Part shown: positions 23,393 through 31,026 of the stretch, in pieces
Numbering within the stretch: the stretch's first letter is position 1
Layout: the number at the start of each line of letters is the position of its first letter
Assembly (NCBI GenBank): GCA_022822135.1
Contig: JAJECH010000050.1
Coordinates: 1 to 64,000 of the forward strand
Direction of reading: 5' to 3'
Origin: Pseudomonadales bacterium
Lineage (GTDB): Bacteria > Pseudomonadota > Gammaproteobacteria > Pseudomonadales > Azotimanducaceae
DNA length: 64,000 bases
Notes under the pieces: generated by a model
The model's input: only the letters and a program-made list of their open reading frames with translations
Databases searched by the model: none
Told to the model about the DNA's origin: nothing
Program-made: the position numbers and the translations under genes

Positions 23393-24361
23393 TCATTGTC
23401 TGAATAGTTCCAATGCGTCTCGTGCGGCGTCGGTTGCGATTCGAACGAGAGAATGTGAATGATGTTTATCGGAGCGCCGATCAAGATGCCATTCGATCGG
23501 AGCGCGATTACGTAAGGCTTCTATTTCAATCCAGAGATCCTTATTCGCAACCGGTTTAGAGTCAGATTTGCGCCAGCCACGATTGCGCCAACCATCTAAC
23601 CATTGCGTAATACCTTTGAACAAATATTCGGAATCAGTCGTCACTCGCGTGGGAGCATTCGGATCCAGCGAACGCATCAATACTACAACACCAGTTAGCA
23701 AAGCACGATTGACACTTGTGCCCTCCTCGACTCCATTTTCAATGTCCGTGCTACCATCAAACTCGCGAACAATTGCCCATGCAGCGCGACGCTCACCATT
23801 ATTAACGGCGGCGATAAAGTAACCCTCGGTTAAAGGAATATCGGAAGTTAGCGTGCGTCCATCGTGTGCAGCGGAAGTTGCCTCTTCGCCGGGATCACCA
23901 GCAGCAATTGCGGCTGCGCGGGCGGCTTCATCGACCATTTCATTGAAGGTGTTGCCTGCATGAGCCTTCACCCAGTTCCACTCAACACGTAGCCTTGAGT
24001 TCTGCGCGTGCAATTCGACCCACAAATCCTTGTTGAGGACTGGTTTACCTCTACCTCGCGTCCAATTCTTTCGACGCCACGAATCTATCCACCCTGTAAT
24101 ACCGTTTTTCACATACTGAGAATCAGTGAATAACTCGACTGTCTCGCCATCCTTTCGTGACTTCAGAGCTTCAAGCGCAGCCGTAAGCTCCATACGATTA
24201 TTTGTTGAATGTGCTTCGCTTCCTCGCATAAGCTCATCGGGTTCGCCGTTAATGACCGGCAGGTACGCCCACCCGCCTGGACCGGGATTCGTTGGCGCAC
24301 AGGAACCGTCCGTGTAAAGAACAACCTTGTACTTCGATTCGGGCTTGTTACTCGAACGCAA
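23393..24361 (-). CDS. rnhA: Tandem RNase HI protein: active first domain, degenerate second domain
   Basis: A 322-residue protein with two RNase H folds, where normal RNase HI has about 150 residues. Domain 1 (about 10-150) carries the full catalytic set: Asp18 in YTDGSC, Glu58 in NRMELT, Asp80 in FTDSQY, His134 in KAHAG and Asp144 in VDEAAR. Domain 2 (about 180-320) repeats the scaffold (TDSEYLFKGITQWLDGWRNRGW against TDSQYVKNGITGWIDSWRRKNW; KPVANKDLW against KPVLNKDLW) but the first Asp is Asn188, the Glu is Leu221 and the last Asp aligns with Thr310; only Asp243 is clearly kept. The second copy is thus probably a non-catalytic nucleic-acid-binding or structural part. It overlaps the PpiD gene by 14 bp. 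Confidence 0.93.
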   Translation of the reverse strand: MRSSNKPESKYKVVLYTDGSCAPTNPGPGGWAYLPVINGEPDELMRGSEAHSTNNRMELTAALEALKSRKDGETVELFTDSQYVKNGITGWIDSWRRKNWTRGRGKPVLNKDLWVELHAQNSRLRVEWNWVKAHAGNTFNEMVDEAARAAAIAAGDPGEEATSAAHDGRTLTSDIPLTEGYFIAAVNNGERRAAWAIVREFDGSTDIENGVEEGTSVNRALLTGVVVLMRSLDPNAPTRVTTDSEYLFKGITQWLDGWRNRGWRKSDSKPVANKDLWIEIEALRNRAPIEWHLDRRSDKHHSHSLVRIATDAARDALELFRQ

Positions 24362-26261
24362 TGAGTTCAGTCTTTATCGAAGCCTCTGATCTCAAACTAA
24401 CAAAGAACGCCGCGGTTGCTCGCGTCTTAGCGTCGTTACCCGCGCTCTCTGTTAACGTGTCTTGTTCGGACGAGTCAAGCAATGCGTAATCGGCAAGATT
24501 CTGACGGGAGGTCGTAACAATGTACTTTGTCGGTGTGAATTCTGATTCGGCGGAAACGATCACGCGCTCACCGTCTGATGGAAGCGCTTCTGCAAATGCT
24601 GCGTCGAGAATGGCAGGATCAACGGTGAAATCGTCCCGTTTTTGCCTTTCGTATACAACCCAATCCGACCCCGCAGCACGAGACGCCGCGTCGTAGTCGC
24701 GATCTTCCAATAGTTGGTTTAGCACGCTATCAAGTTTGGAATCTCTTGCGGCAACCGCCGATTCCTCTGCAAGTTTCTGACGAATTCCGTCTGAGACTTC
24801 CTCAAACGGCCGCAACGTTGGCTCGGTTCGATTGATCAATCGACCGACAACGATGGCAGAGTCTCCGATCTCAACTACACGGCTGTTAAAACCATTGTCG
24901 ATCACATCGCTATCCAAAAACGCGCTTCGAACACTCTGGTTGGCGAGTAGACCATCTCGACTAAACTGGTCTACCCCTACGATCTCACTGATTTCGATAT
25001 CAAATTCAGCCACAATCGGCTGTAACGAATCTGACTGTTCGAATGCGAGTCGGTCTACTTCCGTGAGTGCTTCCTTAAGAGATTCGGACGCCAGTGCTAA
25101 CCGATGTTCTTCGACCAGCGCTTCGCGGCGATCTTCCAGTGAAGGAAGATCGAGATCTTCGACTTCGAGCAACTCAATCAGGTGATATCCGTACGATGTC
25201 TTGACCGGCTGTGAGACTTCGTTAAGTTCGAGCGACCATAGTGAGTCGGAAAATTCTGTTACCCACTGTTCACGGTCTGAGAACCCGAGATCACCCCCAT
25301 CTCGCTTCGAGCCTTCATCCTCGGACAATTCACTTGCCAAGTCTCCTAACGATTCTCCGCCTTCAACTCGAGCCCGAAGCTCTGAGATAAGCACTAGCGC
25401 TTCTTCATCCGAACGGTTGTCGTCAACCTTAATCAATAAATGACGACCTCGACGTTGGGCATTTGATTCACGTGCAGCGATATCAGCTTCATACAGGTCC
25501 TGAATTTCCTCGTCAGAGAGATTCGCTTCCGTAACAAATTGCTCGCGCTTCAACTCGACGTATTCGAAGTCGAAGGTACCTTCGGTCATATACAAGTCGG
25601 TATTGAGTTCGTAATAAGACGCGATGTCTTCGCCGGTAACGCTATTCGGGTCTTCGAATTGATCAAGATTGAATTCCAGAACCGAAATGTCACGAACTTG
25701 CTTTTCGAATTTCGCTGCAAGGCGGGTTGCAGATTCTGTGCTAAACGCCGTATCTTCTAATGCACGCAAAAGCTGAGTACGAACGGTCGATTCTTCCTGT
25801 ATCCCGCGAAGCGTCTGCACGGAAAGACCACCTCGCTCAAGCGTCGCTCGGAGTAGCTCCTCATCGAACTCACCGCTTTCTGATTGAAACTGCGGGTCGG
25901 TTCGAAGCACCCTCTCGAACGCCAAATCCGATAAAGTAAGATCTAAGTCACGACTCGCTTGCATTAGCAGTTCCATATCAATCAGGCGTCGAAGCGCGAA
26001 TTCTTCGTTCACGAATTGATCGAGTTGAGCCTCTGTCACCGAGTCACCATAGCTAGCTCGAAACTGTTGCTTTGTGCGTTCAACTTCTGATGCCAAGCGA
26101 CGCTCGGTGATATCCTCACCATTTACGGTGGCTATGGCGGGTTTATTTACAGCGAAAAGATTGAACGCCCCAAAGCCGAAGATCGTCAAGACAACGATGA
26201 TCACGCCTGCTACGAACTTTGCGATCCACGATTGGGACGCATTGCGCATTCTGACCAACAT
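24348..26261 (-). CDS. ppiD: PpiD-like SurA-N domain peptidyl-prolyl isomerase/periplasmic chaperone
   Basis: A 637-residue inner-membrane-anchored periplasmic folding factor. A single membrane segment lies at about residues 15-37, followed by a SurA-like N domain with NGEDITERRLASEVERTKQQF. A parvulin domain is centred on RRGRHLLIKVDDNRSDEEAL and DLGFSDREQWVTEF (about 265-360). A long C-terminal helical region follows. It lies after hupB as in E. coli, but a 130-bp gap with a plus-strand terminator-like hairpin separates them. Confidence 0.94.
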   Translation of the reverse strand: MLVRMRNASQSWIAKFVAGVIIVVLTIFGFGAFNLFAVNKPAIATVNGEDITERRLASEVERTKQQFRASYGDSVTEAQLDQFVNEEFALRRLIDMELLMQASRDLDLTLSDLAFERVLRTDPQFQSESGEFDEELLRATLERGGLSVQTLRGIQEESTVRTQLLRALEDTAFSTESATRLAAKFEKQVRDISVLEFNLDQFEDPNSVTGEDIASYYELNTDLYMTEGTFDFEYVELKREQFVTEANLSDEEIQDLYEADIAARESNAQRRGRHLLIKVDDNRSDEEALVLISELRARVEGGESLGDLASELSEDEGSKRDGGDLGFSDREQWVTEFSDSLWSLELNEVSQPVKTSYGYHLIELLEVEDLDLPSLEDRREALVEEHRLALASESLKEALTEVDRLAFEQSDSLQPIVAEFDIEISEIVGVDQFSRDGLLANQSVRSAFLDSDVIDNGFNSRVVEIGDSAIVVGRLINRTEPTLRPFEEVSDGIRQKLAEESAVAARDSKLDSVLNQLLEDRDYDAASRAAGSDWVVYERQKRDDFTVDPAILDAAFAEALPSDGERVIVSAESEFTPTKYIVTTSRQNLADYALLDSSEQDTLTESAGNDAKTRATAAFFVSLRSEASIKTELIAFE

Positions 26262-26391: not shown

Positions 26392-26670
26392 TTAGCTGTT
26401 TATTCGTTGCTTCAGTCTACTACCTGCCTTGAAGGCAGCGTTCGACGACGCAGCAACTTGAATAGGTTCGCCAGTTTGCGGGTTGCGTGCAGTCCTTGCA
26501 GCGCGGTGGCGAACTTCAAAGGTTCCGAACCCTATAAGCATCACCGGATCCCCATTACACAGCGATTCAGCAATTGATTCAAGAATCGCGTCAAGTGATT
26601 TTGCGACGTCGCCCTGTGTCAGCGACTCATCCTTTCCGGCAGCCGCACGGATCAAATCAGCTTTGTTCAC
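26392..26670 (-). CDS. hupB: HU family DNA-binding protein
   Basis: A 92-residue nucleoid protein. It begins MNKADLIRAAAG and has GFGTFEVRHRAARTARNPQTGEP-type DNA arm sequence, split here as GFGTFEVRHRAAR and RNPQTGEPI, then FKAGSRLK near the end. It starts with GTG at 26670, with GGAGA at 26681-26685 as binding site. A terminator after clpX (26773-26798) means hupB should have its own promoter in the 100 bp before it. Confidence 0.96.
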   Translation of the reverse strand: MNKADLIRAAAGKDESLTQGDVAKSLDAILESIAESLCNGDPVMLIGFGTFEVRHRAARTARNPQTGEPIQVAASSNAAFKAGSRLKQRINS

Positions 26671-26772
26671 TTACATATCTCCATGAACGTATGTGAGAAA
26701 AGAGCACCCGCGAAAGACATCGTGAATGCGACAATCCTGACGCATCCGCGTGCTGCAACGCAACTACTCCAT

Positions 26773-26798
26773 AAAAACCCGAACTTCCGATGTTCGGG
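26773..26798 (-). terminator. Intrinsic terminator after clpX
   Basis: On the minus strand CCCGAAC and GTTCGGG (26792-26798 and 26778-26784) form a 7-bp stem with a short loop, followed by five T (26773-26777). It lies 60 bp downstream of the clpX stop and before hupB, on the coding strand of both. Confidence 0.8.
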
Positions 26799-26858
26799 CG
26801 ATCAGATCGCGTTGGATCCAACTCTATTCGTACCATCATAGTATCGTCGAGACTTGCT

Positions 26859-28145
26859 CTAAACCGTATCTCCGCCGCTGACCTTCTTTTCCATCGGCTT
26901 GTACTTCAGCATAGGTTTATGTGCTTCGCAGTCACGAACCATTTTGGCATCTACGACAACACCAACGACGTCCGATTTAGAAGGTATCTCGTACATGACA
27001 TCAAGAAGCACCTCTTCCAAGATCGAGCGAAGGCCACGAGCACCAGTCTTGCGTTCAACCGCCCGTTCTGCGATAGCTTCCAGTGCATCGTCATTGAATA
27101 CTAAATCGACTTCTTCCATACCTAAGATCGCTTGATATTGTTTAATCAGCGAGTTCTTGGGTTCCGTCAGGATCTTGACGAGTGCATCTGTGTCAAGTTC
27201 CTGCAACGTTGTAACGACTGGCAGACGTCCGACCAGCTCAGGGATCAAACCATACTTGATTAAATCCTCTGGTTCAACCGTTTTCAGAATCTCACCAATC
27301 TGCTCTGCGTCTTCTTCGCCTTGAACGGTCGCGTTGAAGCCGATTCCACTTTCTGATGTCCGGTTTTGGATTACTTTCTCCAATCCCGAAAATGCGCCAC
27401 CTACGATGAACAAGATATCTGAAGTATCCACCTGGATGAATTCTTGCTGGGGGTGCTTACGTCCTCCTTGAGGAGGAATAGCCGCCGTGGTGCCTTCGAT
27501 CAACTTCAAGAGCGCTTGTTGTACACCTTCACCAGACACGTCTCGCGTGATCGACGGGTGATCGGTTTTACGCGAGATTTTGTCGATTTCATCGATGTAG
27601 ACGATCCCGCGTTGAGCTTTCTTGACATCGTAGTCGCACGTCTGAAGCAGCTTCTGAATGATGTTCTCGACGTCTTCGCCCACGTAGCCGGCTTCGGTCA
27701 AGGTTGTCGCATCTGCTATTACAAACGGGACCTTGAGCATACGAGCGAGCGTTTCTGCCAATAGGGTCTTGCCTGAACCGGTAGGACCGATGAGCAGGAT
27801 ATTCGACTTCGCGAGTTCGACATCTGACTCTTTACCGCCGTTGCGCAGTCGCTTGTAATGGTTGTACACGGCCACTGACAAGATGCGCTTCGCATAGTCC
27901 TGACCAATGACGTAGCCGTCTAGGAACTCATTGATCTTCTTCGGGACCGGCAGCTCATCAGCTTCGGTGCGCTCTTGCTCCACCGGCTTTTTCGGCTGCT
28001 TGATGATGCCGGCACAGATGGCAACACACTCATCGCATATGTAAACGTCATCCTGACCTGCGATGAGCTTGTCGACTTCTTGACCGTTCTTAAAACAAAA
28101 GGAACATTCGGCGACGTCGTCCGAGCCGCCTTCTCGATCACTCAT
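26859..28145 (-). CDS. clpX: ATP-dependent Clp protease ATP-binding subunit ClpX
   Basis: A 428-residue AAA+ unfoldase partnering ClpP. The N-terminal zinc-binding domain uses Cys14, Cys17, Cys37 and Cys40. Walker A GPTGSGKT lies at 120-127, the pore loop AGYVGED, Walker B IVYIDEID, the RKH-type loop [10 protein letters not shown], and the ClpP-contacting loop with IGF (SGIGFNATV) are all present. The C-terminal sensor 2 region [12 protein letters not shown] is conserved. Immediately upstream lies a small gene encoding two more copies of the same zinc domain. Downstream, the usual lon gene is absent and a terminator follows. Confidence 0.98.
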
Positions 28146-28190
28146 GTTGTTGATTCCATATCGTTTCTTGGTGCGCTTACGTGCGCCTTA
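28017..28190. repeat. Duplicated segment, copy in clpX (leader plus zinc-domain codons)
   Basis: The leader and first 43 codons of clpX resemble those of the small gene at 28177-28443. The leader holds GGCGCACGTAAGCGCAC and AATCAACAACATG, against GGCGCACACGAAAGTGCAC and AATCAGCAACATG in the other copy. At protein level 32 of the first 43 residues are identical. The last codons of the small gene run into this leader element. Confidence 0.75.
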
Positions 28191-28443
28191 TGATGCCATC
28201 ACAAATCGCGACACACTCTTTGCAAATCTGTGCTTCGCTTTCGTTTGGAATTGGGAACTCGTTCTTACGAAACTTCTTAGAACAGAAGGAACATTCAACG
28301 ACCTCATTTGAGCGAATCGCGACACATTCATCGCAAATATAAACGTTGTTGTGACCAGCTATGAGCTTGTCAACTTCCTGACTGTTCTTTGAACAGAAAG
28401 AACACTCTACGATGACCTCTGAGACGCCTTCTTGATCGCTCAT
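28177..28443 (-). CDS. Stand-alone tandem ClpX-type zinc-binding domain protein
   Basis: An 88-residue protein consisting almost only of two C4 zinc domains of the ClpX N-terminal type. Domain 1 uses Cys14, Cys17, Cys37 and Cys40, domain 2 Cys51, Cys54, Cys74 and Cys77, both with CX2C-X19-CX2C spacing. Residues 1-43 are 32/43 identical to ClpX of the same locus; domain 2 is more diverged but ends [16 protein letters not shown], matching the end of the ClpX domain. There is no AAA+ part. It has its own ATG and stop, lies 155 bp after clpP and 31 bp before clpX on the same strand. In ClpX this domain dimerises and binds adaptors and some substrates, so a free tandem copy could compete for or deliver cargo; this is inference. 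Confidence 0.85.
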
Positions 28444-28490
28444 GTTGCTGATTTTCTACACCTCGCTCGTGCACTTTCGTGTGCGCCGTG
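28315..28490. repeat. Duplicated segment, copy in the stand-alone zinc-domain gene
   Basis: Partner of the repeat at 28017-28190. It includes a leader hairpin-like element (GCAC and GTGC around ACGAAA) and the first zinc-domain codons. The DNA is clearly alike but has diverged at many synonymous sites, so the duplication is not very recent. Confidence 0.7.
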
Positions 28491-28598
28491 TTCTAAGAAT
28501 AGCACGTTAGCGGCATTTTCCGCGATTTGCAGCGTTGCATGCCTAACTAGCGACCAGAACGACGCATCCGAATTTGATTCGATTCTGCTCGAATTTCG

Positions 28599-29207
28599 TT
28601 ACTCATTGACCGCTTTGGGCAACTTGACACGAGGTTCTTGAACCTTGTCGATCAGCCCGTATTCCGCCGCCTCTGCGGGTGTCATCCAGTAATCGCGATC
28701 AGTGTCCTTCGCGATCTGTTCGACCGATTTGCCAGTATGTACCGCCAACAGTTCATTCAACTGCTGACGGATCGCCAAAATCTCGCGAGCCGCGATTTCG
28801 ATATCGGCGGCTACGCCTCTCGAACCACCGGATGGTTGATGGAGCATGATTCGCGAGTTCGGCAATGCGAAACGCTTGTTTTCAGCACCCGAGGCTAGTA
28901 AGAACGCTCCCATACTTGCTGCCTGGCCGATACATGTCGTCTCAACGTCGCATCGCACGAACTGCATGGTGTCATAGATTGACAATCCAGCGGTCACAGA
29001 GCCGCCAGGCGAATTGATATACAAGTGCGTGTCTTTATCCGGGTTCTCGGATTCACACCACAATAGTTGTGCAACAACCACACTCGCGACCGCATCGTCG
29101 ATCGCGCCATTGATAAAAATGATGCGTTCCTTTAGTAGACGCGAGAACAAGTCGTAAGAGCGTTCGCCCCTTGCCGTCTGTTCTAGCACCATAGGCACAA
29201 GCGCCAT
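28599..29207 (-). CDS. clpP: ATP-dependent Clp protease proteolytic subunit ClpP
   Basis: A 202-residue serine peptidase forming the double-ring chamber used by ClpX and ClpA. The catalytic triad is Ser98 (GQAASMGAF), His123 (MLHQPSGG) and Asp172 (TDRDYWM). The N-terminus begins [17 protein letters not shown], as in E. coli after propeptide removal, so any propeptide is very short. It is 19 bp downstream of tig. Confidence 0.98.
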
Positions 29208-29226: not shown

Positions 29227-31026
29227 TTAACCGTTCTTCTTAAACAGTTTTTTGAAAATACCTGGCTTAGTTTCCGTGTCCGCGTCGTGTCCTTCCGCAT
29301 CGGGAACCGCCTCGTCCGCTGTCTTTGATTCCTCGTCATTCTCATTCACCGACTCGGCGTGCGCTTCGGCTGTCTCGTCATCTTTTGGCTTAGACACGCT
29401 AGAGACAAATCCTTCCGGGTCCGGGAGGCTTGGAGCTACTTTGAAAATAGCTAGCGCCTCTTCCGCGTCCTCTCCTCCAGATTGAGACAAAAATGAATCG
29501 AATTCGACATCTTCATCTTCAATCGTAGCCTCATCGAGCAGGAGTTTCGCAGATTGCTCCAAGAGACTCTGAGTGACGAGGTCCTTGTAGTGCTGTTCTC
29601 CATAGACGTAATCTAGATACTCCTGCGCACGAGACTGATCTTCCACCATACTGACGCTGTCAGCCTTTGTCTGAATCTGTGAAGCAACCCAATCTTGATC
29701 CGCTTCAATGCTACGTTGTTCGATCAGAGCTTGCTGTGTCAGCGTGAATGCCACACGCTGCACCGCGCGATTTACTTCGCTCGTCCAAAAAACGCGAAGA
29801 CTCTCGGGAAGCAACCCATCTTCACCGTTGGTTTTGGAGGCCGATTCAGTTTCAGCTTCGGAACTCGAGTCCGAGTCTCCATCCGCACTATCATCGTTCG
29901 CACTAGGTTGAGCCATTAGTAGTCGCTGATCTAAAGTCTCACCATCAACGATGGGATCAAAGAGTCGAAACGCCATAAACGCCGTTTGAAGATTCTCTTC
30001 TCCGATCTGGGTGCCTTCTAAAAATCGCTGTCGTAGCACCTCACGCGGTAAGGACCCAATGTGCTGCTTTGCTAGTGCCCACATCGCACGATTCTCAACT
30101 ATTTGCTCGATTGTTCGTTCGACGTTTTGCTCAATCGAAGCTCGAGCGATTGGCATTAATTCCTCGATACTCTCGATTTTGGTGTCTGGCATTGAATCCA
30201 GGAGATGACGGAATTCCGGCCGTGCGAATAGTGGTTCTCCAAGATGAGGAAGATCACCTGTATCGATGCGAACAACGGTCGCCGCCGTTGAACTTGGCGT
30301 CGAGTCTTCGCTCATGCCAAGTTCATTACTCAGTTCTTCGTCTGATATCTCAAGTTGCTCACCTACCTTCAGTCCGATGAGCTTTTCTTGAAATGATTCC
30401 GATAGCTCGTTCTTTGGCAAACGAAGCACGATAGGAAATCGTTCAGTTTTTCTCTCGGTTACGTCATCGGAACTCGGGTCCGCTTCCGACGCCTCAGGTT
30501 CTTCAGATTCAAATTGGCATTCAATCCAGATGCGATCGCCATTCTTTGATTGGATCTCATCACCTTTCAGCTCGTACCACTCAATACAACGCGTACGCGC
30601 GTTATCGATTTGTTCTCTTACATTTGCGTCGCTAAGGATCACGTTCGGACGTTTAATCGTTAGTTCCGCGAGATCGCCGATCTCGATCTTCGGCATCGTC
30701 TCCACGCGTACTTTGTAGGTGTACGGCGCATCTGTCGGCGCGCTTAGGTAAGGTCTACCTATCCAACCCGCCTGCAGTCCTTCGTCGGAGAGGATGGTGG
30801 TACAGTTTTCATTGACGATTTTTTCGAGTACATCGTTCTCGATCGCGGAACCGTAGCGCTGCGAAATCACTTTGCGAGGCGCTCTTCCTTTACGAAATCC
30901 CTTCAGGTGCGCGTTGGAAGCAACTTCATTTGTGAGTTCGTGAATCCGCTGATCCAATGCTTCCTGGCTGATAGGTACGGTGTACTCACGCGTGAATTCA
31001 CCGATCTGCTCGTATTCGTAGGTCAT
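29227..31026 (-). CDS. tig: Trigger factor, unusually long with acidic inserts
   Basis: Ribosome-bound chaperone of 599 residues; typical trigger factors have about 430. The ribosome-binding motif GFRKGRAP lies at 43-50. The PPIase region is at about 155-255 and carries an acidic insert around 172-192. A Ser/Asp/Glu-rich insert at about 373-404 breaks the C-terminal chaperone arm. A long acidic extension (about 505-587) ends in a short basic tail (KPGIFKKLFKKNG). The start is fixed by homology at the ATG 31026, only 22 bp after the tRNA-His CCA end, with no clear Shine-Dalgarno. It is followed by clpP. Confidence 0.93.
   Translation of the reverse strand: MTYEYEQIGEFTREYTVPISQEALDQRIHELTNEVASNAHLKGFRKGRAPRKVISQRYGSAIENDVLEKIVNENCTTILSDEGLQAGWIGRPYLSAPTDAPYTYKVRVETMPKIEIGDLAELTIKRPNVILSDANVREQIDNARTRCIEWYELKGDEIQSKNGDRIWIECQFESEEPEASEADPSSDDVTERKTERFPIVLRLPKNELSESFQEKLIGLKVGEQLEISDEELSNELGMSEDSTPSSTAATVVRIDTGDLPHLGEPLFARPEFRHLLDSMPDTKIESIEELMPIARASIEQNVERTIEQIVENRAMWALAKQHIGSLPREVLRQRFLEGTQIGEENLQTAFMAFRLFDPIVDGETLDQRLLMAQPSANDDSADGDSDSSSEAETESASKTNGEDGLLPESLRVFWTSEVNRAVQRVAFTLTQQALIEQRSIEADQDWVASQIQTKADSVSMVEDQSRAQEYLDYVYGEQHYKDLVTQSLLEQSAKLLLDEATIEDEDVEFDSFLSQSGGEDAEEALAIFKVAPSLPDPEGFVSSVSKPKDDETAEAHAESVNENDEESKTADEAVPDAEGHDADTETKPGIFKKLFKKNG

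Follow-up and report, generated by a model that had tools for sequence, protein, structure and literature searches.

A small gene with two ClpX-type zinc domains lies between clpP and clpX

The window is the whole stretch of DNA that was analyzed, 64,000 nt in length. Its genome was named G000, and the other G numbers denote the genomes compared with it. On the minus strand of the window, tig, clpP, a small gene, clpX, a HU-like gene, and a ppiD-like gene follow one another in this order (Table 1). The Pfam search found two zf-C4_ClpX (PF06689) stretches in the small protein (75.5 bits, cut-off 27) and no ATPase. The first-pass annotation had described an 88-residue protein with two C4 domains of ClpX spacing and no ATPase part, and the open reading frame and the Pfam score bore this out.

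Each of the two zinc domains (ZBDs) alone exceeded the PF06689 cut-off, with 56.2 bits for domain 1 and 28.8 bits for domain 2. Together with ClpX (58.1 bits), they were the three PF06689 places in the G000 genome. The ClpX unfoldase models NF003745 and TIGR00382 reached only 43.1 and 40.2 bits, and their cut-offs are 359 and 370.75, respectively. No AAA family was listed for the small protein in Pfam and NCBIfam. The cysteine spacing was C-x2-C-x19-C-x2-C in domain 1, domain 2, and the adjacent ClpX alike. The best sequence matches in the PDB were isolated ClpX ZBD entries, which matched domain 1 (2ds7, E 2e-8; 1ovx, E 5.4e-8). PADLOC returned one match, with E 0.036 and 11 bits. A chance frame was ruled out by the family match and by the relatives described below. 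Chance is an unlikely source of the small gene because these relatives carry the same eight cysteines.

Three side observations were made on the neighboring genes. The trigger factor had a clear N-terminal domain, and its C-terminal match stayed below the threshold (13.5 bits, cut-off 22.7). A 322-aa protein at 23393-24361 (minus strand) matched RNase H (PF00075, 198 bits) in two stretches of a single chain and is also a tandem-domain protein. In other proteobacteria, lon lies between clpX and the HU-like gene. In the window, lon was absent between these two genes (26671-26858), and a Lon_C match (270 bits) was found in a 786-aa frame on another contig (G000:C56).

Table 1. Features of the clpP–clpX region and its surroundings in the window.
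Feature	Position	Strand	Remarks
ppiD-like gene	24348..26261	-	
HU-like gene	26392..26670	-	
clpX	26859..28145	-	428 aa, complete
Spacer, small gene stop to clpX start	28146..28176	-	31 nt; copy of leader end
Small gene	28177..28443	-	88 aa, ATG start; open reading frame and Pfam
Zinc domain 2	28186..28296	-	PF06689, 28.8 bits; 9 of 14 scored residues kept; basic FRKNE segment
Zinc domain 1	28315..28407	-	PF06689, residues 13-43; 14 of 14 scored ClpX-ZBD residues kept
Leader, clpP to small gene	28444..28598	-	155 nt; same length as the clpP–clpX leader of G016
Conserved leader element AACGTGCTATTCTT...	28486..28508	-	one per genome, 6 of 6 genomes
clpP	28599..29207	-	202 aa
tig (trigger factor)	29227..31026	-	599 aa

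The small gene carries copies of the clpX 5' end

Residues 1-43 of the small protein, which contain domain 1, were identical to the adjacent ClpX at 32 of 43 positions, as the first-pass annotation had counted. At the DNA level, the repeat offsets in the window were 298 nt between domain 1 and clpX, 187 nt between domain 2 and clpX, and 111 nt between the two domains. These offsets agreed with the earlier proposal of a tandem duplication of the clpX 5' end, with the correction that the 187-nt-spaced unit is present a second time, as domain 2. The duplication had also been said to include the leader. This stood for its end, since 138 nt from 10 nt before the small gene start matched the clpX start by 79% at the offset of 298; the part of the leader with the conserved element does not belong to the copied unit.

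The locus of G001 carries three copies, 187 and 189 nt apart, sharing 92% and 72% identity with the reference copy. The repeat unit is of equal length in the window and in G001, because the 187-nt spacing occurs in both. On this sequence evidence, the small gene arose as a 187-nt tandem repeat of the clpX leader end and about 47 zinc-domain codons. In G001, copy 1 and copy 2 are followed by clpX, of which 44 codons are known as the contig stops within the gene. AAG occupies the start-codon site of copy 2, and the leader between copies 1 and 2 is read as a 26-residue linker. The genes of G000, G015, and G017 have the G001 layout minus 78 nt, in frame, so that the two copies are fused. The junction of the zinc-domain codons with the copied leader was recognizable in all four carriers. 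The small protein ends at this junction with RRT in G000, KRT in G001, and KKHK in G017, and the junction is read through in G015. The locus of G001 looks like an intermediate in the escape of a domain from a multidomain enzyme via tandem repetition of its 5' end. An assembly error is possible for any single draft genome and is hard to square with four diverged copies.

Recent origin from a phage or plasmid was unsupported: coverage of the protein at a single place reached 80% in none of the 24 phage records and none of the 40 plasmid records. The features named at these matches were ClpX, a ClpX-like subunit, gp258, a hypothetical protein, and a ClpX C4-type zinc finger protein.

The two-domain gene was found in four genomes of the genus

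The genus sample of 18 genomes was searched with alignment A1. Four genomes (G000, G001, G015, and G017) contained the two-domain protein, with at least 138 bits over both domains, and all eight cysteines were kept in the alignment of the four proteins. Three of the four were thus the relatives with conserved cysteines that the first-pass annotation had staked its reading on. The next A1 matches in the genus, at 71.8 bits or less, were ClpX starts. G012 (77% complete) gave no A1 match, and the clpP–clpX gap was read in the other 17 genomes. This gap held the two-domain gene in all four carriers, and a frame with two CxxC pairs was absent from it in 12 of the 17. In G016, one of the genomes missing the small gene, clpP and clpX are separated by a plain leader of 155 nt. 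Of 20 other genomes of the family that were tried, the gap was readable in 11 (the search pattern gave no clpX in five, clpP was not in the stretch in three, and one was masked), and none of the 11 had a frame with two CxxC pairs there.

Wider searches were performed with A1 in samples of the class and the phylum, which overlap in genomes. In the class, 338 of 369 genomes gave a match, and only that of G000 spanned both domains among the matches listed, where the next match outside G000 had 48.5 bits and lay in a 442-aa frame. In the phylum, the respective values were 388 of 398 genomes, again with only the G000 match spanning both domains among the matches listed, and 44.5 bits in a 433-aa frame for the next one outside G000. 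The Pfam family was used for the order and matched in 374 of 390 genomes. More than one match was present in 25 genomes, namely G000, G014, and 23 others; the extra matches of the 23 were in frames of 440-529 aa or 58-199 aa, one per frame, apart from G396, with a frame of 313 aa. A scan of genome_contigs with the single protein found no relative. The scan with A1 gave 13 loci: three with two domains, nine ClpX with a Walker motif, and one single-ZBD frame of 182 aa (L059). The three two-domain loci (L047-L049) belong to the genomes G017 (COS1_bin_8), G015 (COS4_bin_15), and G001 (277c_35).

Among 61 ZBD loci of viral contigs, 42 were frames with a Walker motif and one was a 772-aa frame without it. 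The remaining 18 were short frames of 63-155 aa without a Walker motif, some of which end at contig ends. None of the 61 loci contained two complete ZBDs. Five of the short single-ZBD proteins (L087, L097, L102, L104, and L116) shared a similar YDxLxK-like part before the ZBD.

Two other rearranged frames were observed between clpP and clpX. G014, of the same genus, has a lone divergent ZBD frame there (L041:1641-1868, plus strand; 75 aa, GTG start, 35 bits against the cut-off of 27), perhaps from an independent event. G396, of the same family, has a ZBD–ClpP fusion frame of 306 aa (L144:1465-2385, plus strand), in which approximately the first 85 ClpX residues, including the zinc domain (64 bits), are joined to a second ClpP (274 bits). 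It looks as if clpP and the clpX 5' end had been duplicated in tandem; a fusion or an internal start is possible. Given these two frames, re-use of the ZBD at the clpP–clpX locus may be recurrent in the family.

Gain, loss, and selection

G015 and G016 were sisters in three trees (support 100, 99, and 66), and the order of the rest of the carrier clade was poorly supported in these trees. G006, in which the gene is absent, was placed outside the carriers in two trees (support 65 and 58) and beside G000 in the tree of codon positions 1+2 (support 64). The latter position would call for one more loss. The simplest account is a single gain with a later loss in G016, and separate gains are the alternative. 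In the single-domain tree, the second domains of G000, G015, and G017 formed one clade (support 99) on a long common branch. The second domain of G001 grouped with the ClpX of G001 (support 87), suggesting either a separate event or that this domain later exchanged sequence with clpX.

The four small genes had pS of 0.62-0.71 and pN of 0.26-0.34 by the Nei-Gojobori method, with an omega of 0.15-0.28 that is rough because the synonymous sites are near saturation. For the three genes of the same layout (G000, G015, and G017), pS was 0.62-0.71 and pN was 0.27-0.30. Their full-length pN/pS values were 0.38, 0.42, and 0.47; the bootstrap limits spanned 0.26 to 0.70, the upper ones being 0.54-0.70. 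The bootstrap limits for single domains were 0.13 to 0.96. For clpX of G000, G015, G016, and G017, pS was 0.48-0.71 and omega was 0.005-0.012. By these estimates, the small gene is under constraint, far less than ClpX is.

A neutral simulation was started from the window gene, with 20,000 runs per distance. At distance 0.3, 0.015% of the runs kept the frame and the eight cysteines; at distances 0.6, 1.0, and 1.5, none of the 20,000 runs did. Taken over the whole clade, the pN/pS values, the simulation, and the kept cysteines ruled out that the gene is a clpX fragment in decay. Absence of decay had been argued before from the eight cysteines, and the aligned relatives and pN/pS agreed with it; the full-length values of 0.38-0.47, with upper limits of 0.54-0.70, likewise answered the earlier question of how much of the change is non-synonymous.

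The locus might also be prone to repeats, with recombination producing copies that stay open transiently and bring no benefit. The plain 155-nt leader of G016 without the gene, the grouping of the G001 second domain with its own ClpX, and the two further ZBD rearrangements in the family (G014 and G396) are consistent with such a by-product. The full-length pN/pS, with an upper limit of at most 0.70, and the neutral simulation, in which no run kept frame and cysteines at distance 0.6 or beyond, argue against it, and we consider it quite unlikely.

The two zinc domains had unlike fates

The small proteins were compared with ClpX in alignment A4, whose 20 rows comprise the four small proteins plus 16 ClpX segments, including two phage ones. 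Fourteen positions with little or no variation in A4 were scored. A fifteenth conserved position, the cysteine C81, was left out of the 14; at this site, domain 1 carries R in G000 but Y in G017. Domain 1 kept 14 of the scored residues in G000 and G017, 12 in G015, and 13 in G001. Domain 2 kept 9 in G000, 7 in G017, 8 in G015, and 13 in G001. At the site of NGQEVD in ClpX, domain 2 has KFRKNE in G000, KYRKNE in G017, and EFRRKD in G015. By Pfam, the G000, G001, and G017 proteins each had two stretches and the G015 protein had one; the second domain of G015 was defined by the alignment and the kept cysteines.

Domain 1 is without the second half of the helix that follows the last CxxC, and domain 2 has kept this helix. 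According to passages of PMC5890618, this C-terminal helix contributes to the dimer interface of both the ClpX NTD and CsfB. Dimer formation by the shortened domain 1 is therefore uncertain. AlphaFold2 models from 4 and 20 sequences were of low confidence (pLDDT 62.6 and 62.0, pTM 0.35 and 0.34); in the first of them, the helix is short in domain 1 (38-44) and long in domain 2 (75-87). Foldseek with the first of these low-confidence models found no match at E 0.001 or better. Its ranks 1-7 were six ClpX entries at E 0.016-0.041 and one TRIM32 RING, and this result says no more than the sequence does.

The divergence of domain 2 bears on the possibility that the small protein is a new adaptor, whose domain 1 pairs with the ClpX ZBD and whose domain 2 brings substrates of its own. 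The domain 2 segment F/Y-R-K/R-N/K-E/D in three genomes, which is missing from ClpX, the unlike fates of the two domains, and the long common branch of the second domains would fit such a role. It is a doubtful one, as no substrate is known, the domain 1 helix is short, and the segment comes from three sequences only.

The small gene probably shares a transcript with clpX

In six genomes, the conserved leader element lies 52 nt before the first start codon downstream of clpP. This start codon is that of clpX in G006 and G016 and that of the small gene in the four carriers. The pattern of the element, AACRTGCTATTCTT-WRA-NN-AC, occurred once in each of the six whole genomes, and the backward control gave none. 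Among the leaders of G000, G015, and G017, the first 85 nt behind clpP were 32-58% identical (ungapped), and the last 70 nt were 80-87% identical. The region 28100-28700 contained no match to the sigma-70 consensus promoter and no terminator. As the consensus did not match, the element is a putative promoter on the basis of its conservation. If it is a promoter, its place 52 nt before the first start codon means that the small gene probably heads the clpX transcript. The small gene stop lies 31 nt before the clpX start in G000, G001, and G017, and the two overlap by 8 nt in G015. From this arrangement we infer that the small gene and clpX are expressed from one transcript at a fixed ratio.

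The same 31-nt spacing and 8-nt overlap, together with the constant 52 nt between the leader element and the start codon, would also fit a cis-acting leader frame whose translation sets that of clpX. A frame with no other role than this would have no need of eight conserved cysteines or of a low pN/pS, which makes this explanation very unlikely.

The small protein may modulate adaptor use by ClpXP

In our best reading, the small gene is a paralogue of the clpX 5' end that is confined to one clade and maintained by selection. This is part of a larger reading, to which we assign a probability of roughly 0.45, in which its product is a modulator: a free ZBD module that would compete for the adaptors of ClpX or pair with ClpX ZBDs. 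The first-pass annotation had offered titration of adaptors, capping of ZBD dimers, and a new adaptor as possible roles; titration or capping was ranked above the new adaptor.

Adaptors reach ClpXP through the ZBD. Passages of PMC9035409 report that this domain can dimerize in isolation and is essential for adaptor contacts. According to parts of PMC7226468, deletion of the ZBD abolishes the sigma-S turnover mediated by RssB and leaves that of SsrA-tagged substrates intact; in vitro, free ClpX ZBD is reported to inhibit the RssB-mediated turnover. A section of PMC12373786 describes binding of the SspB tail peptide XB by the dimeric ZBD, with a KD of 35 nM for a synthetic XB-containing peptide on immobilized ZBD.

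The free ZBD module would act on ClpXP via ordinary ZBD contacts. Its domain 1 would bind partners of the ClpX ZBD, perhaps the SspB tail that binds ClpX, another adaptor, or the ClpX ZBD itself as a dimer partner. Adaptor-dependent degradation would be damped or redirected, and ZBD-independent degradation would continue. The diverged domain 2 may hold a new contact that gives the module a specificity of its own. The conservation of domain 1 favors contacts common with the ClpX ZBD, and the divergence of domain 2 favors a new contact. SspB was matched in all 12 genomes searched, out of the 18 in the genus, so the free ZBD would have an encoded partner to compete for. The C-terminal ends of three of the four SspB copies retrieved were LRLVKD (G000), LRLVKD (G016), and LRVVKD (G001). 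The tail of E. coli SspB is LRVVK.

Several results speak against the modulator. The small gene is dispensable in G016, because this sister of G015 lacks it. The gene evolves far faster than ClpX, the single-domain limit of pN/pS reaches 0.96, and Pfam found one stretch in G015. The helix of domain 1 is short, and the structure models are weak. A two-headed regulator made at a fixed ratio to ClpX, in which domain 1 makes ordinary ClpX-ZBD contacts and domain 2 is a new recognition head, would reprogram ClpXP in the clade; this reading is conceivable and rather doubtful.

If the modulator reading is true, a soluble, selected copy of the ClpX docking domain would place a built-in control on adaptor traffic. 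The carriers would then offer a natural test of adaptor-dependent versus direct degradation in the cell.

Comparison with known systems

IraD-type anti-adaptors, which act on RssB, would resemble the small protein in action only, in that both would lower adaptor-dependent delivery to ClpXP. Unlike IraD, the small protein is built from the docking domain of ClpX itself.

CsfB (Gin), an anti-sigma factor of Bacillus subtilis, is described in passages of PMC5890618 as a small free four-cysteine treble clef that forms a ClpX-NTD-like dimer. The same source gives it one domain with the pattern C11-x2-C14-x15-C30-x2-C33, whereas the small protein has x19 between its pairs, and in these passages its authors doubt common descent with ClpX. 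A CsfB-type role as a free treble-clef protein would agree with the reported resemblance of the CsfB dimer, above all others, to the ClpX NTD dimer (PMC5890618, in part) and with the drift of domain 2, save its cysteines and basic segment. Such a role is nevertheless unlikely for the small protein, as domain 1 is near the ClpX ZBD (12-14 of 14 scored residues) and the gene adjoins clpX in all four carriers.

The closest likeness is to the ClpX ZBD itself (PDB 1OVX, 2DS5-2DS8), with which the small protein shares the cysteine pattern within one residue of spacing and from which it descends by tandem repeat. It differs in being a small protein without the ATPase ring, in having two domains per chain, and in its short domain 1 helix and diverged domain 2.

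The first-pass annotation knew of no described protein of this build. This did not hold for free ZBDs as such, since single-ZBD frames without a Walker motif were common (18 of the 61 viral loci, L059, several in the order, and H55), and it did hold for the tandem form, which was not found elsewhere in the samples. Among the open-licence PMC papers listed, no title or abstract start dealt with a tandem ClpX zinc domain in free form. One Streptomyces plasmid match is annotated as "ClpX C4-type zinc finger protein". PHROG 6797, for which PHROG gives no function, matched the small protein (51.5 bits) and three viral ones. Its single-ZBD proteins are likewise ZBDs without an ATPase part; they have exactly one ZBD, and the 18 short viral frames have only one complete ZBD, whereas the small protein has two. 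The domain family has been described before, and its free single-domain members are widespread; the tandem, clpX-linked form was found in four genomes of one genus and in no other of the samples searched. What a loose ZBD does is a question that phage single-ZBD genes raise as well, and the small gene is a bacterial case of it beside the parent gene.
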